Positions 19,864 through 25,979 of a DNA stretch of 39,974 bases are shown in pieces. The stretch is from Alphaproteobacteria bacterium (GTDB taxonomy: Bacteria > Pseudomonadota > Alphaproteobacteria > UBA7985 > JAUIBT01): NCBI GenBank assembly GCA_030428565.1, contig JAUIDR010000029.1, positions 1 through 39,974 of the forward strand. Reading direction: 5' to 3'. The position numbers were made by a program, and so were the translations under genes. The notes below the pieces were generated by a model. The model was not told where the DNA came from. It did not search any database and saw nothing but the letters and a program-made list of their open reading frames with translations. The stretch's first letter is position 1. Every line of letters begins with the position of its first letter.

Positions 19864-21339
19864 TTACCACCTGGCCGCAGCGGACTTATAGGGCCCAGCC
19901 GGGCGCGGCCAACACGGCCCTTGCGCATTCAAGGTCAGCGGAAAGGCAACCCGGCGCATCGCTCCCCACGGGGTTTGCTCGACACCGGGCGCAAAATCGC
20001 GCTCCTCTGCGCTGAGGGCCTCGCCTTGGCAGCTTTGCCGTCGGGTCTGCCACAACAACAGCGCCGTCCTGGCCAAGCTCAGCCGCGCCGAGACCAATCG
20101 ACCGCCCACCAATCGCGCCGCTAAGACCTCACACGCCGCCGCGGCCAGCAGGTAGCCGGTCGCGTGGTCCAGCGCCTGTACCGGCAGCATGACCGGTGGC
20201 GCCTCGCTGTCGCCCTGCCGGCCATAGTCGGCCAGGCCGCTCGTCTGCTGCACGATGGTGTCAAAGCCGCGCCGCTCGCGCCAGGGCCCTTCCCAACCAT
20301 AGGCATTGAGCGCCACATCGACCAGCCGGGGATTGAGCCGACGTCGGGCCTCTTGGCCATATCCCAAGCCCGCCAGAGCGCCGTCGCGATAGCCATGCAC
20401 CAACAGGTCCGCCTCGCCGAGCAGGACTTCGAAACGCGCCCGGTCCGCCTGTTTGGTCAAATCCAACAAGGCGCAGCGCTTACCCAAAGCCATCTCGATC
20501 GCCACCGCCTCTTCGCTCCACTGCGGCGGGTCGATGCGCAAAACCTCGGCGCCGAAACCTGCCAGCAGCCGGGTCGCTGCCGGTCCGGCCAAGACGCGCG
20601 TTAAATCCAAGACCTTCAGCCCCGCCAATGGGCGCTCGGGCGTCGCTTCAGGGGCGTCACTGTGCTGGGCAGCGGCCTCGGTTTCTCCTTGATTTTGCCA
20701 GGCCACCAAGGGCTGAGCGGCAACCGCTTGCCCGGCTGGCAGGGCCTGCCATTGCGCAAAACTAAGCAGTTTGGCCGCGCAACCCCCGGCGGCGATGACC
20801 GCTGTCTCCAGCGCCTCGCTATCCCAAGCCGCGACCCGTGAGGCCAACTCGGCTTGCTCCTGAGCCGCCCCCAAAACCGACAAAGCAGCCTGGCGATGGT
20901 GCGGGGCATTGGTGTGCAAGCGCACCCAGCCATCTTTTGCCCGATAATTGCCCGCCAACGGATCCCAGAGGCTGGGTATGCGCCAGTCCTCGGGCCGGGT
21001 CGTCAGATCAAACCAGAGCGAGGCCAAACGGCGATCAAGGGCGAGCTTGGGCGGGGTAAGTCCGCGCGCTTGTGCCAATCGCGCCAGGCTGCGACCGGCC
21101 TGCTCCAGGCTGGCGGTCGCTAGATCCGAGACCGCAAACCAAGACCGCCAGTCGGCCTCTCCACGGCCAACAACACGCGACCCGGCCCTGTCAAAAGACG
21201 GTAGCAATGGGCTAGCGAAGGCCGCAGACACGGCTTCACTAACGACCAGCTGGTGGCTGGCGCTGGCAAGCGCCGGGCTTGAGCTGGCAATCGCCTGGTT
21301 GGCAACCGTTTGGCTAGACTCTGCGCCTTGATCCGGCAT
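19864..21339 (-). CDS. CaiB/BaiF-family (class III) CoA-transferase
   Basis: Class III CoA-transferases move CoA between acids through an aspartyl-CoA intermediate. The product is 491 residues from the ATG at 21339, which shares the A of the upstream HPr stop (TGATG), with GAGG upstream. The recognisable family core starts near residue 245 (LAGLKVLDLTRVLAGP, then RIDPP). It includes the GYRDGALAGLGYG segment, and the candidate catalytic Asp in RRGFDTIVQQTSGLADYGR. The first 240 residues resemble a second, degenerate copy of the domain (DWRIPSLWDPLAGNYRAKDGWVRLH) preceded by an Ala/Ser-rich stretch. The substrate is not predictable. Co-translation with the PTS-like HPr is odd. Confidence 0.85.
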   Translation of the reverse strand: MPDQGAESSQTVANQAIASSSPALASASHQLVVSEAVSAAFASPLLPSFDRAGSRVVGRGEADWRSWFAVSDLATASLEQAGRSLARLAQARGLTPPKLALDRRLASLWFDLTTRPEDWRIPSLWDPLAGNYRAKDGWVRLHTNAPHHRQAALSVLGAAQEQAELASRVAAWDSEALETAVIAAGGCAAKLLSFAQWQALPAGQAVAAQPLVAWQNQGETEAAAQHSDAPEATPERPLAGLKVLDLTRVLAGPAATRLLAGFGAEVLRIDPPQWSEEAVAIEMALGKRCALLDLTKQADRARFEVLLGEADLLVHGYRDGALAGLGYGQEARRRLNPRLVDVALNAYGWEGPWRERRGFDTIVQQTSGLADYGRQGDSEAPPVMLPVQALDHATGYLLAAAACEVLAARLVGGRLVSARLSLARTALLLWQTRRQSCQGEALSAEERDFAPGVEQTPWGAMRRVAFPLTLNAQGPCWPRPAGPYKSAAARW

Positions 21340-21650
21340 CAACCCTCGTCCTCGGGCTCCAGGTCAAAGCGCCGTGCGATCAGCGCCTGTAGCGCATCTA
21401 AGGCCGAACCTGCTTGCGGGCCCTGGGCGCTGAACATGACCACCGCGCCTTGGGGAATGCGCAACTCGCTGACATCCAACAGCGAGTCCGCCTCGGCTTC
21501 GCGGCCATGGCGCTCCAAATGGACGCGCGCGCGAAACTGTTCCAGACAACGGACCATCTCGGTTGCGGCAGCCAGGTCGATGCCACGGCGGTTCAAGATG
21601 GTCGCGCGCATACGCGTAGGCGCCGGTTCGGGCATTCCGTTAGGCTGCAT
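21339..21650 (-). CDS. HPr-like protein lacking the phosphorylatable histidine
   Basis: A 103-residue protein (98 from the alternative ATG at 21635). It aligns along its length with alphaproteobacterial nitrogen-PTS HPr: NRRGIDLAAATEMV corresponds to the active-site NRRGLHARAAA, FRARVHL to the second strand, and the C-terminal GPQAGSALDALQALIARRF to the HPr terminal helix. The active-site His is Asp25 (codon GAC) and the following Ala-Arg is Leu-Ala. PEP-dependent phosphotransfer through His is therefore impossible. The regulatory-Ser region (DSLLDVSEL) is also altered. It overlaps rapZ by 11 bp and is followed by the CoA-transferase through TGATG. It may be a degenerate remnant or a non-phosphorylatable regulator. 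The HPr assignment rests on pattern matching by eye. Confidence 0.7.
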   Translation of the reverse strand: MQPNGMPEPAPTRMRATILNRRGIDLAAATEMVRCLEQFRARVHLERHGREAEADSLLDVSELRIPQGAVVMFSAQGPQAGSALDALQALIARRFDLEPEDEG

Positions 21651-22725
21651 GCCAAGCCCCCGACTTGCCTTTGGACGCAGGGTTGGCCGCATCACGCCCG
21701 GGCTGGTCCCCGCCCGCAACCGCGCCGGCCCCGTTATCGTCTCCTACAGGGTCCGGCAGGGGCTCGAATTTCGTAAAGTGGCCCAAGACCTGATGGCGCA
21801 GGCTGACACGGTGGCCCTTCTTGCGCGCCCAATCGGCCAAGCTTTCGGCGATAAAGACCGAGCGATGCTTGCCGCCACTACAACCCACAGCCACGGTTAA
21901 ATAGGACTTGCCCTCTTGCCCGTAACGACGCAGCGACAGGCCCAACAAATCCGTTAAGCGTTTGAAATATAGATTAAAATCCTCGTCCTGACGCACATAG
22001 CGCTGCACAGCCGGATCACGACCGGTCTGCGAGCGTAGGTCCGGGTCATAGTGTGGGTTGCGCAAAAAGCGCACGTCGAATACCAAATCGGCCGAACGCG
22101 GCAGACCATCCTTATAGGCAAAGCTGAGGAAGTGCAGCGCCAAATCGCCCTGCGAGAGCCCCACGACGCGCGAAGCCACCATGTGCCGCAAATCGGGAAT
22201 GCCGGTTCGGGAAGTATCAATCACCAAGTCGGCTTGGTCGCGCAGGTCGGCCAGGAAGTGGCGTTCTTGGCCGATACCATCGCTCAAGGGGCGGTCGGGT
22301 GCCAAAGGATGCCGACGGCGGGTTTCGTTAAAGCGGCGCTGCAAAACATCGTCATCGGCATCTAAGAACAGCAGCGTGACTTGTAGATTTGGCAGCGAGC
22401 GCATGATCGAGACCAGATCCAAAACTGCTTCGGGCGCAAAGCCGCGGGTGCGCACATCCAGCCCCAGCGCCAAAGGCTGATTTCGGGCCGCCGCCGGCTC
22501 GCCCGGGTCGGGGTTAGCCAGCGCCTGCGCCCAGAACTCCAGCGGCATGTTGTCGATGGCCTCAAAGCTGAGATCTTCCAGCGCACGCAACACCGATTGC
22601 TTCCCCGCGCCGGACATCCCTGTCACGATGATCACTTGGCGGCGGTCCGCAGCAGCGGCGCCTTCGTCCTGGGATGGTTCGGCAGGGTTGGGAGCGGTCA
22701 CAAAAACGGCCTCTAGCTGGAACAC
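21640..22725 (-). CDS. rapZ: RNase adapter RapZ (YvcJ/RapZ nucleotide-binding protein)
   Basis: The RapZ/YvcJ family binds nucleotides. In E. coli it targets small RNAs to RNase E to control amino-sugar synthesis; the alphaproteobacterial role is less clear. Length 361 with an extra N-terminal tail of about 30 residues. Visible are the Walker A motif GMSGAGKQS (residues 36-44), the LEDLSFEAIDNMP segment and the LFLDADDDVLQRRFNETRRRHPL motif. The C-terminal domain contains VAVGCSGGKHRSVFIAESLA. A GTG start is used. It usually sits between hprK and a PTS EIIA gene; neither is present here. The TATAAA at about 22786-22791, upstream on the minus strand, could be the -10 of its own promoter. Confidence 0.92.
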   Translation of the reverse strand: MFQLEAVFVTAPNPAEPSQDEGAAAADRRQVIIVTGMSGAGKQSVLRALEDLSFEAIDNMPLEFWAQALANPDPGEPAAARNQPLALGLDVRTRGFAPEAVLDLVSIMRSLPNLQVTLLFLDADDDVLQRRFNETRRRHPLAPDRPLSDGIGQERHFLADLRDQADLVIDTSRTGIPDLRHMVASRVVGLSQGDLALHFLSFAYKDGLPRSADLVFDVRFLRNPHYDPDLRSQTGRDPAVQRYVRQDEDFNLYFKRLTDLLGLSLRRYGQEGKSYLTVAVGCSGGKHRSVFIAESLADWARKKGHRVSLRHQVLGHFTKFEPLPDPVGDDNGAGAVAGGDQPGRDAANPASKGKSGAWHAA

Positions 22726-22850
22726 GCGGGCGGGCTAGGACGCTTTAGGTCGAATGAAATTCACTCAACGCGCCCTATCGATTTGATTTTATAGCAAATT
22801 CCCCAGCGCAATCGAGAACGAATGTTTGGGCTTTGCTCTAGGGTCAATCG

Positions 22851-22864
22851 GCAGGCAAGCCTGC
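22851..22864. promoter_or_regulatory. Perfect inverted repeat GCAGGC-AA-GCCTGC
   Basis: A 14-bp palindrome in the 274-bp gap between chvG and rapZ, where hprK would be expected. It may be an operator or a small stem; there is no T-run next to it. Confidence 0.35.
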
Positions 22865-22999
22865 TGCTGCACATGTTACCCAAGTCAGCGGGTAAAGAGC
22901 AAGGCCAGCGGCGCCGACCGCCGCTCTGGGCACGTCACATGGGCCTGCAAAGCCCATAGCCTAACCGCTACTTTCCTAACGCTAGGCTGTGGGGCGGTA

Positions 23000-24967
23000 T
23001 TAGGCCTCGCCTGAGTCGGTCTCCTCGTCATTGGCCCGCGCGTCTTGCAGACGCTCGCGATAGGCGGGCAGCAGGACTGAGAAACGGGCACCGCGTGGCT
23101 CACCGTTTTCGTCGCGCATGGTCTCGGCCCATATCTGCCCTTTGTGGGCTTCGATGATTTGGCGGCAGATCGAAAGCCCCAACCCCGAATGATTGCCGAA
23201 GCCTTGATGATCGGGGCGATCGGTAAAGAAGCGGCTGAAGATTTTTTCTTCCTTACCTTCGGGCAAGCCCGGCCCTTCGTCTTCGACCATAATCAGCACT
23301 TGGCGATCTTCTACGCGATCAGCGAAGATGTGGATATGCCCGTTTTCGGGTGAAAAACTGGCAGCATTAGTCACCAGGTTGCGCAGCACTTGACCCAGCC
23401 GCCCTTCCAGGCCCAGCACGTTCAGCGCGTCTTTTTTCGGAATGTCCAGCTCCAACACCGCCCCCCCGTCCTTGCGGGTCATGTTGTACGAATCGGCGTA
23501 GGTATTGAGCATCTCGACGATGGATAGGCGGCGGCCATTGGTGCGGGACATCTCCGTATCAATGCGCGAAGCGTTGGAAATGTCGGTAATGAGGCGATCC
23601 ATACGATCAACATCGTTGATGATGATATCGGCCAGAATTTTGAACTTCTCGGGGTCTTTGACCATCTTGGCCGTCTCGACCGCCGAACGCAAAGAGGTCA
23701 GCGGGTTCTTCAGCTCGTGGCTGACATCGGCCGCGAAGGATTCAATGGCGCTGAGGCGCGTCCACAGAGCGTCGGTCATTTCACGCAGAGCCACAGACAG
23801 ATCGCCGATTTCATCGCGGCGGTAGGAAAAATCTGGAATGGGAACCTGGCGCGCTTTGCCGGTTCGCACCAAATCGGTCGCCAGAGCCAAGCGGCGCACG
23901 GGGCGCGCGATGGTCCAGCCGAGGTAGACCGAAAGCACCATGGTTACGATGAGGGCCACCAAGAAGACCTGCAAGATCAACAAGCGAACCGCATTGACCT
24001 CTGCTTCGATCTCGGTTTGATCGCGCGAGAGCATGAGCGAGCCCAAAACCCGACGATAGGCGCGTACAGGTACCCCCACCGAGACGACCAGATTGCCGCC
24101 GTCATCGACCCGGACTTGCGAGGATTGTAGGCCCGACAGCGCGGCTTCGGCTTCTTCATAGCTGGCAGCGGTCTGAATGACTGGCTCGACATAGGCCGGC
24201 AAATTGGAGCGCCGTGATCCCAAATCGAACAACCAGGTCAAAAAGGGCACACCCTGGTCATCGCGGATCGGACTAATTTTGATCGGGATAGACCCGCGAT
24301 GGCTCAAGAAACTATCCGACAACAGCTCCCCATCTGGGCGGAAAATTCTCAGGCGTGCGTTGGTGTTGCGCGCCAAGATCAGCGCCAGATAATTGACCCG
24401 CTGGGGCACCAACTCTTGGCGTCCGTCCTCTTGAATGACGGCACCGCCCTCACCCAACGAGTTGGCGATCAATACCGCCTCCCGGCGCAGCGACTCGATC
24501 TCGGCTTCGATCAGCGCCTCGCGATAGCGGTCGGCCCACAGCAGGCCCATGATCGGAATAGCCAAGACAGCCAAGTTGATCAAAAAGATGCGCAGGTAAA
24601 GAAAAGACAGGCGTGATTCCTGCCATGGCAAGCGCTTAGACTTGGGTCGAAACAGATCCAAGAGGCCCAGAAACTTGGTGCCCAAAAAGCCCGCCACCAG
24701 CCTGAAGCCGCGCCAGCTGCGCAGGGCAAATTTGAGCGCCGTTTGTGCTAGTCGCCCAAGTTTTGCGGGGATATTGCGCGCCTTGCCTGTCGCGGGTTTT
24801 GCACCGCTGTCCCCGGCACCGCTGTTAACGGCATCGCTAGCATCGACCGCGCCGTCCGGGGGCACCGCAGAGCGCGACGGCCACCAGCGCGTGAGCTTCT
24901 GGCGCAAGCGATCTGACAAGGATGGCGAACTGGACAAGCGACCAAGGTTCCGTGGCAGGTTAAGCAA
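23000..24967 (-). CDS. chvG: ChvG/ExoS-like sensor histidine kinase
   Basis: Inner-membrane sensor kinase, partner of the ChvI-like regulator upstream. Length 655. Two transmembrane helices (about 122-144 and 327-349) enclose a periplasmic sensor of about 180 residues with the layout of the ChvG stimulus-sensing domain. HAMP follows, then HisKA with the phospho-acceptor His417 (SHELKNPLTSLRSAVE), then an HATPase with NLVTNAASFSPENG, the DEGPGLP and GFGNHSGLGLS boxes. A Ser/Gly/Arg-rich cytoplasmic N-terminus of about 110 residues is longer than usual. In Rhizobiales this pair responds to acid and envelope stress. The start is TTG with AGGG seven bases upstream. The gap to chvI is 310 bp. Confidence 0.9.
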   Translation of the reverse strand: MLNLPRNLGRLSSSPSLSDRLRQKLTRWWPSRSAVPPDGAVDASDAVNSGAGDSGAKPATGKARNIPAKLGRLAQTALKFALRSWRGFRLVAGFLGTKFLGLLDLFRPKSKRLPWQESRLSFLYLRIFLINLAVLAIPIMGLLWADRYREALIEAEIESLRREAVLIANSLGEGGAVIQEDGRQELVPQRVNYLALILARNTNARLRIFRPDGELLSDSFLSHRGSIPIKISPIRDDQGVPFLTWLFDLGSRRSNLPAYVEPVIQTAASYEEAEAALSGLQSSQVRVDDGGNLVVSVGVPVRAYRRVLGSLMLSRDQTEIEAEVNAVRLLILQVFLVALIVTMVLSVYLGWTIARPVRRLALATDLVRTGKARQVPIPDFSYRRDEIGDLSVALREMTDALWTRLSAIESFAADVSHELKNPLTSLRSAVETAKMVKDPEKFKILADIIINDVDRMDRLITDISNASRIDTEMSRTNGRRLSIVEMLNTYADSYNMTRKDGGAVLELDIPKKDALNVLGLEGRLGQVLRNLVTNAASFSPENGHIHIFADRVEDRQVLIMVEDEGPGLPEGKEEKIFSRFFTDRPDHQGFGNHSGLGLSICRQIIEAHKGQIWAETMRDENGEPRGARFSVLLPAYRERLQDARANDEETDSGEA

Positions 24968-25277: not shown

Positions 25278-25979
25278 TTAAGCGTCGCGGTAGCGATAAC
25301 CGACGCCATAAAGGGTTTCGATCTGATTGAACTCATCGTCGGTCTGCTTGAACTTTTTGCGCAGACGCTTGATGTGCGAGTCAATCGTGCGGTCATCGAC
25401 ATAGATGTGCTCGCCATAGGCGGCATCCATCAGTTGATCGCGGGTCTTAACGTGACCCGGACGCGCCACTAAAGACTTGAGGATCAAGAACTCGGTCACG
25501 GTCAAGGTGACGGGCGTATCCTTCCACAAGCATTGATGCTTGATCGGGTCCAAGGTCAGATGGCCGCGGACCAGCGCTTCTTCGCTCTTTTCCGATGAAG
25601 CGGCTTCGCTGGCGGCCTGCTTGCGGCGCAGGATGGCGCGCACGCGCTCGATCAACAGGCGGTGGCTGAAGGGCTTGGTGATATAGTCGTCGGCGCCCAT
25701 GCGCAGCCCCAAGACCTGATCCACCTCGGTATCCGCCGAGGTCAAGAAAATCACAGGTACGTTGGACTGGCTGCGCAGCCGGTTCATGACTTCGATGCCA
25801 TCCATGCGCGGCATCTTGATATCCAGAATTACGAGATCGACGGGCTGAACCGCGAGCGTCTTAAGGGCCTCTGAACCGTCCGTAAAGCTGCGAACGACGA
25901 AGCCTTCATTTTCAAGACTGATGGCAACAGAGGTCAAAATATTGCGGTCATCATCGACCAAAGCGATGGTGTGTTGCAC
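25278..25979 (-). CDS. chvI: ChvI-like OmpR-family response regulator
   Basis: A 233-residue two-domain regulator. The receiver domain begins [12 protein letters not shown] (acidic pocket Asp9-11), with the phospho-acceptor Asp53 in [12 protein letters not shown] and the conserved Lys in DYITKPF. The C-terminal winged-helix domain is OmpR type, with the recognition region DQLMDAAYG...[17 protein letters not shown]. It ends with [14 protein letters not shown], a ChvI-like C-terminus. The start is GTG with AGGGA upstream. Pairing with ChvG rests on adjacency and family. The neighbour upstream is a divergent intergenic region and GNAT, not pckA as in Rhizobiaceae. Confidence 0.92.

Follow-up and report, generated by a model that had tools for sequence, protein, structure and literature searches.

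A His-less HPr under purifying selection beside rapZ in an alphaproteobacterial genus without detected enzyme I or HPr kinase

The HPr locus and its ancestral gene order

The window (the whole 39,974-nucleotide stretch of alphaproteobacterial DNA that was analysed) carries on its reverse strand a run of genes leading from a chvI-type response regulator and a chvG-type sensor kinase, through rapZ and a small HPr-like gene, to a family III CoA-transferase (Table 1). The product of the small gene, referred to here as D-HPr, consists of a 13-residue N-terminal extension (MQPNG...) followed by a complete HPr domain. Its reading frame is open over 21339–21719, and the start was placed at the ATG at 21650 by comparison with two congeners, G001 and G002. 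These and the window's genome (G000) belong to one genus of uncultured Alphaproteobacteria, in family f1, and are compared below with two other families of the same order, f2 (G003, G005, G007, G008 and G010) and f3 (G004).

Table 1. Features of the HPr locus, in window coordinates
Feature	Position	Strand	Basis or remark
chvI-type response regulator	25278..25979	-	Upstream; protein identical in G002, near-identical in G001
chvG-type sensor kinase	23000..24967	-	HisKA, HATPase_c, Stimulus_sens_1 and Sensor_TM1 matches
Intergenic stretch (position of hprK in relatives)	22702..22999		MAFFT, tblastn, G004 synteny
rapZ	21640..22701	-	GTG start at 22701 by congeners; NF003828 (RapZ) 303 bits, cut-off 244
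rapZ/HPr overlap, 11 nt, ATGCAGCCTAA	21640..21650	-	Same in 3/3 species
D-HPr (His-less HPr), 103 aa	21339..21650	-	PF00381, TIGR01003, AlphaFold2 model, dN/dS
Asp codon at the His15 position (protein residue 25)	21576..21578	-	Reads GTC on the forward strand; HPr alignment
Ser46-equivalent codon (protein residue 56)	21483..21485	-	HPr alignment
Family III CoA-transferase	19864..21339	-	PF02515, 166.6 bits

An earlier note, made from the letters of the window alone, described the HPr gene as tightly coupled to both of its neighbours, and the junctions agree with this. Besides the 11-nt overlap with rapZ, the HPr stop codon overlaps the CoA-transferase start, as TGATG in the window and G001 and as GTGA in G002; each of the three species has both junctions. 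The note also described an empty gap of 274 bp in the place of hprK; the distance from the chvG stop at 23000 to the start of the longest rapZ frame at 22725 is exactly that, or 298 bp if the congener-shared rapZ start is used. An hprK pseudogene in the gap was considered and rejected: when the gaps of all three species were searched by tblastn with the HprK of G004, no remnant of the gene appeared and the matches were chance ones only (best E 0.05 over 13 residues). The gap sequence is not conserved between congeners (MAFFT), a search of it for a sigma-70 promoter found none, and it holds one weak terminator-like site, the number expected by chance.

Judging from relatives, the ancestral order is chvI-chvG-hprK-rapZ-EIIA-HPr, the one that the earlier note had given for relatives. 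G004 retains this cluster intact beside fabA-fabB-fabI, the same fab genes as in the window, and hprK and EIIA have therefore been lost from the window's own locus. Of 38 sampled alphaproteobacterial HPr loci, 37 have EIIA-man as the gene immediately upstream, the remaining locus being cut off by the end of its contig, and in 28 rapZ lies just ahead.

The CoA-transferase is apparently built in an unusual order, with the N-terminal part of CoA_transf_3 matching residues 239–433, while the roughly 230 residues before this match resemble, by eye, the C-terminal half of the family.

An HPr domain in a genome lacking its phosphorelay

D-HPr belongs to the HPr domain family and lies outside the phosphocarrier class. 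Profile searches, whose failure would by the earlier note have refuted its reading, place it in the family at 56.6–57.3 bits with PF00381 (cut-off 23) and, narrowly, at 48.5 bits with TIGR01003 (cut-off 47.9). Its AlphaFold2 model (pLDDT 89.9) has the open-faced beta-sandwich of HPr and matches the best HPr structures with Z scores of 15–17.6 and an rmsd of 0.9–1.6 over 83–89 residues, the matches including structures of the Escherichia coli His15Asp mutant (1CM3, 1CM2, 3CCD).

The active site is where D-HPr departs from its family. It reads GIDLAAAT where relatives read GLHARAAA, so that His15 is replaced by Asp, as the earlier note had seen, and Arg17 by Ala. Arg17 is part of the HPr active site together with His15. 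In an alignment of 75 HPr domains, position 15 is His in 70, Asp in the three of this genus and outside the local alignment in two; His and Arg occupy positions 15 and 17 in 70 of the 75, against Asp and Ala in D-HPr. The equivalent of Ser46 is kept, this position being Ser in 74 of the 75. In the model the Asp directly precedes helix A (residues 26–36); Asp is a good helix N-cap, and Asp15 could serve as such a cap, as a negative charge, or as both. G001 and G002 have the same Asp and the same order of genes.

The rest of the relay appears to be missing from the whole genome. G000 is 99.2% complete and holds a single HPr. Profile searches of G000, G001 and G002 found no enzyme I N-domain (PF05524), no HPr kinase (HprK) and no EIIA-man in any of the three, with G002, itself 99% complete, agreeing on all three absences. 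The PEP-utiliser C-domain (PF02896) has one match per f1 genome, in a frame of 891–965 residues (891 in G000), a length from which we infer a pyruvate phosphate dikinase; f3 has a dikinase-size PF02896 protein and a separate enzyme I. PtsN (EIIANtr) is present in all three species with its active-site His intact. G000 thus has an EIIA-type acceptor in PtsN, with no enzyme I found as donor. The earlier note's account of missing hprK and EIIA genes holds, as to hprK and EIIA-man, for the genome as well as for the locus, and the search it had asked for, of other parts of the system, yields ptsN but no ptsP or other enzyme I gene, no hprK, no EIIA-man and no second HPr; as a description of the locus it stands, though it missed the genome-wide absence of enzyme I and the retention of PtsN. 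The PtsN of G000 (C58:96839-97264, locus L116), like those of G001, G002 and f2, keeps its His without any enzyme I.

Across the Alphaproteobacteria sampled, HPr is present in 68 of 96 genomes and enzyme I in 63 of these 68, G016 being counted among the 63 on a weak sub-threshold enzyme I match only. His15 and Arg17 are kept in all 70 HPr domains of the 63 enzyme I-bearing genomes. HPr without enzyme I occurs in five of the 96, namely the three of this genus and G005 and G008 of f2, and the His is absent from all five (Fisher's test of His15 loss against enzyme I absence across genomes, p ~1e-7, with only two independent lineages). The Asp form is carried by three species only. In GTDB r220 no D-HPr genes were found beyond those of the two congeners, the MAGs Co_bin.199 and 6_bin.59, no relatives were found in viral contigs, and the best matches read outside the genus in a class-wide scan with a D-HPr profile were ordinary His-containing HPrs. 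In G016 the HPr (locus L036, 5611-5931) scores a weak 57 bits with GLHTR intact, in a genome of 1.7 Mb, and this is perhaps another phosphorelay in decay.

Selection on D-HPr and a parallel case in a second family

D-HPr is under strong purifying selection, and each of the three species has the Asp. The dN/dS values for the three species pairs are 0.045, 0.054 and 0.059 (Nei-Gojobori; bootstrap limits 0.013–0.11, at dS 0.94–1.44). These are as low as or lower than those of the neighbouring rapZ (0.056–0.142), chvG (0.075) and CoA-transferase (0.13–0.17), with chvI at 0–0.009, and few genes in the cluster are more tightly constrained than D-HPr. Positions 12–20, the altered active-site loop, and 36–63, spanning strand 3, helix B and strand 4, show one conservative difference (S/T51) among the three species, and the remodelled face is therefore the best-kept part of the protein. 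The comparison across relatives that the earlier note had called for thus shows a conserved Asp under selection that is not relaxed, in a genome with no complete PTS-Ntr and for a protein that HPr profiles do recognise; neither outcome that the note had named as refuting its reading occurred. Its overall reading was right as to HPr family membership, the loss of relay parts and the selection on a protein with Asp, while its word "remnant" undersells the constraint.

A second His-less HPr occurs in family f2. In G005 and G008 the HPr-like protein is encoded after rapZ and reads FIMQSGPVLRREVA against the canonical TIVNKRGLHARAAA, with Leu at position 15 in a gapless comparison, and its frame from MTAVAEF yields a full-length HPr domain. 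Its dN/dS is 0.18, against 0.15 for the rapZ neighbour and 0.75 for the preceding stretch of the same open frame. Neither enzyme I nor HprK was detected in any f1 or f2 genome. In three further f2 genomes, rapZ has no HPr downstream: G003 (locus L130), G010 (L132) and G007 (L134). These have lost HPr in full and form the sister branch to the f2 species with the Leu15 protein.

A tree of RapZ, ChvG and ChvI, three linked genes with long branches, groups the genus with f3, which has kept the full relay, with support of 100, and leaves f2 outside. The loss in f2 therefore looks independent, and the comparison suggests that enzyme I, HprK and EIIA-man were lost on two separate occasions. If the tree is right, it also suggests that a His-less HPr twice stayed beside rapZ after the relay had gone.

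Possible function of D-HPr

We consider that D-HPr is an HPr-fold protein that has left the phosphotransferase system and been kept as a phosphorylation-independent regulator, a reading to which we give a probability of roughly 60%. Since it lacks both a donor and an acceptor residue, binding is its most probable mode of action, and the evidence suggests that it now works solely through binding other proteins. The binding surface would be the remodelled, invariant active-site face (the loop and helix A, and strand 3 to helix B). RapZ, which in E. coli is a sensor controlling the supply of amino sugars as cell-envelope precursors, is the strongest candidate for the partner: its gene overlaps that of D-HPr, both lineages have kept the linkage, and the linkage recurs elsewhere. 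The ptsO-rapZ linkage is known in gammaproteobacteria (PMC13104625) and crh is part of the yvcJ operon in Bacillus (PMC6171935), so that HPr genes adjoin rapZ homologues in gammaproteobacteria, alphaproteobacteria and Bacillus. By analogy with the binding of unphosphorylated NPr or Crh, RapZ would be the likeliest protein to be bound by D-HPr; such binding could be constitutive, with either the ligand of RapZ or the abundance of D-HPr determining the output. There are precedents for regulatory binding by HPr-family proteins: the unphosphorylated NPr of E. coli has LpxD as a binding partner and influences envelope stress (PMC4635465), and HPr forms regulatory complexes with MtlR (PMC6763467) and, from the titles of PDB entries, with glycogen phosphorylase and Rsd.

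We propose more tentatively, and with less than even confidence, that RapZ is a phosphorylation-independent partner of HPr that outlives the phosphotransferase system, so that after each of the two losses a His-less HPr was retained or remodelled as a dedicated RapZ subunit. If true, this would expose the ancestral reason for the linkage of HPr and rapZ across phyla. RapZ in G003, G007 and G010 occurs without HPr and therefore does not need it there.

Asp15 might instead imitate phospho-His15, locking RapZ or PtsN, as the partner, into the state that phosphorylated HPr once set. The Asp is fixed in 3/3 species and sits directly before helix A, the usual site of the phosphoryl group of HPr. However, Arg17, which none of the other 70 HPr domains has lost, is replaced by Ala in D-HPr, the parallel lineage f2 has Leu at position 15, and the conservation of the Asp may be structural, as a helix N-cap, so that we judge a locked mimic unlikely. 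Somewhat more doubtful still is that D-HPr remains a phospho-protein, carrying an acyl phosphate on Asp15 or being phosphorylated on Ser46 by a kinase other than HprK. The match of the model to the E. coli mutant structures, the retention of Ser46 and the PtsN His kept in the genus and in f2 are in keeping with this, but enzyme I and HprK are undetectable in any f1 or f2 genome, and the presence of Ser46 says little because it is nearly invariant, also in genomes where HprK was not found.

It is very unlikely that D-HPr is a subunit or regulator of the adjacent CoA-transferase: although the D-HPr stop codon overlaps the CoA-transferase start codon in each of the three species, the CoA-transferase gene is missing from the corresponding place in f3, it evolves much faster than D-HPr, and the His-less HPr of f2 survives without it. 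That D-HPr is a functionless, decaying relic, as the loss of the relay and the complete disappearance of HPr from three f2 genomes might imply, is rejected on the dN/dS of about 0.05 at a dS of about 1 with the frame intact in three species; even the f2 protein is constrained to nearly the same degree as its rapZ neighbour, in contrast to the stretch preceding it in the open frame.

As a regulator acting by binding, D-HPr may work most like Crh (catabolite repression HPr) of Bacillus and relatives, in which the HPr fold is likewise combined with a replaced His15, a retained Ser46 and linkage to rapZ. Crh acts through CcpA. In Parageobacillus its active-site His is replaced by Gln (PMC9631020), and the Crh chain in 1zvv matches the D-HPr model with Z 14.9 and an rmsd of 1.3 over 84 residues. 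However, Crh accompanies a functional HPr as an additional copy, and HPr kinase controls it through Ser46, whereas D-HPr is the sole HPr of a genome without HprK or enzyme I, and it does not therefore qualify as a Crh. NPr (PtsO) shares with D-HPr the ancestral position in the cluster and the ancestral role, but NPr passes phosphate on from EI-Ntr to EIIA-Ntr via its His, which D-HPr lacks in a genome lacking enzyme I.

The E. coli H15D laboratory mutant carries the identical substitution, natural in D-HPr, and the folds match; the mutant retains Arg17, whereas D-HPr has Ala17 and no enzyme I in its genome. The mutant was reportedly studied together with enzyme I. Orphan ptsH genes in Bartonella and Ureaplasma resemble the present case in lacking an enzyme I gene (Comas et al. 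2008, PMC2405797), but in Bartonella henselae hprK and ptsM still stand next to ptsH (PMC2937029), so that phosphorylation on Ser may still take place there. In the literature searched, mostly outside subscription journals, we found no account of a bacterium whose only HPr is His-less and which has neither enzyme I nor HprK.

In this genus natural deletion has set the binding function of HPr apart from its role as a phosphocarrier: all known phosphate donors and the mannose-type acceptor are gone, while HPr persists next to rapZ under strong selection. D-HPr is a clean system for the role of HPr without phosphorylation, and a natural H15D protein for comparison with the E. coli mutant.

Some features of RapZ itself may be recorded. 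In the genus its P-loop reads GAGKQS, with Gln where Ser or Thr is usual, and alignment shows a C-terminal tail, about 45 residues long, that has no counterpart in f2 and f3; the f2 RapZ is without the DVRTRGF stretch. The GlcN6P-type motif C[ST]GGxHRSV is kept in the genus, with Ser replacing the Thr of CTGGxHRSV.
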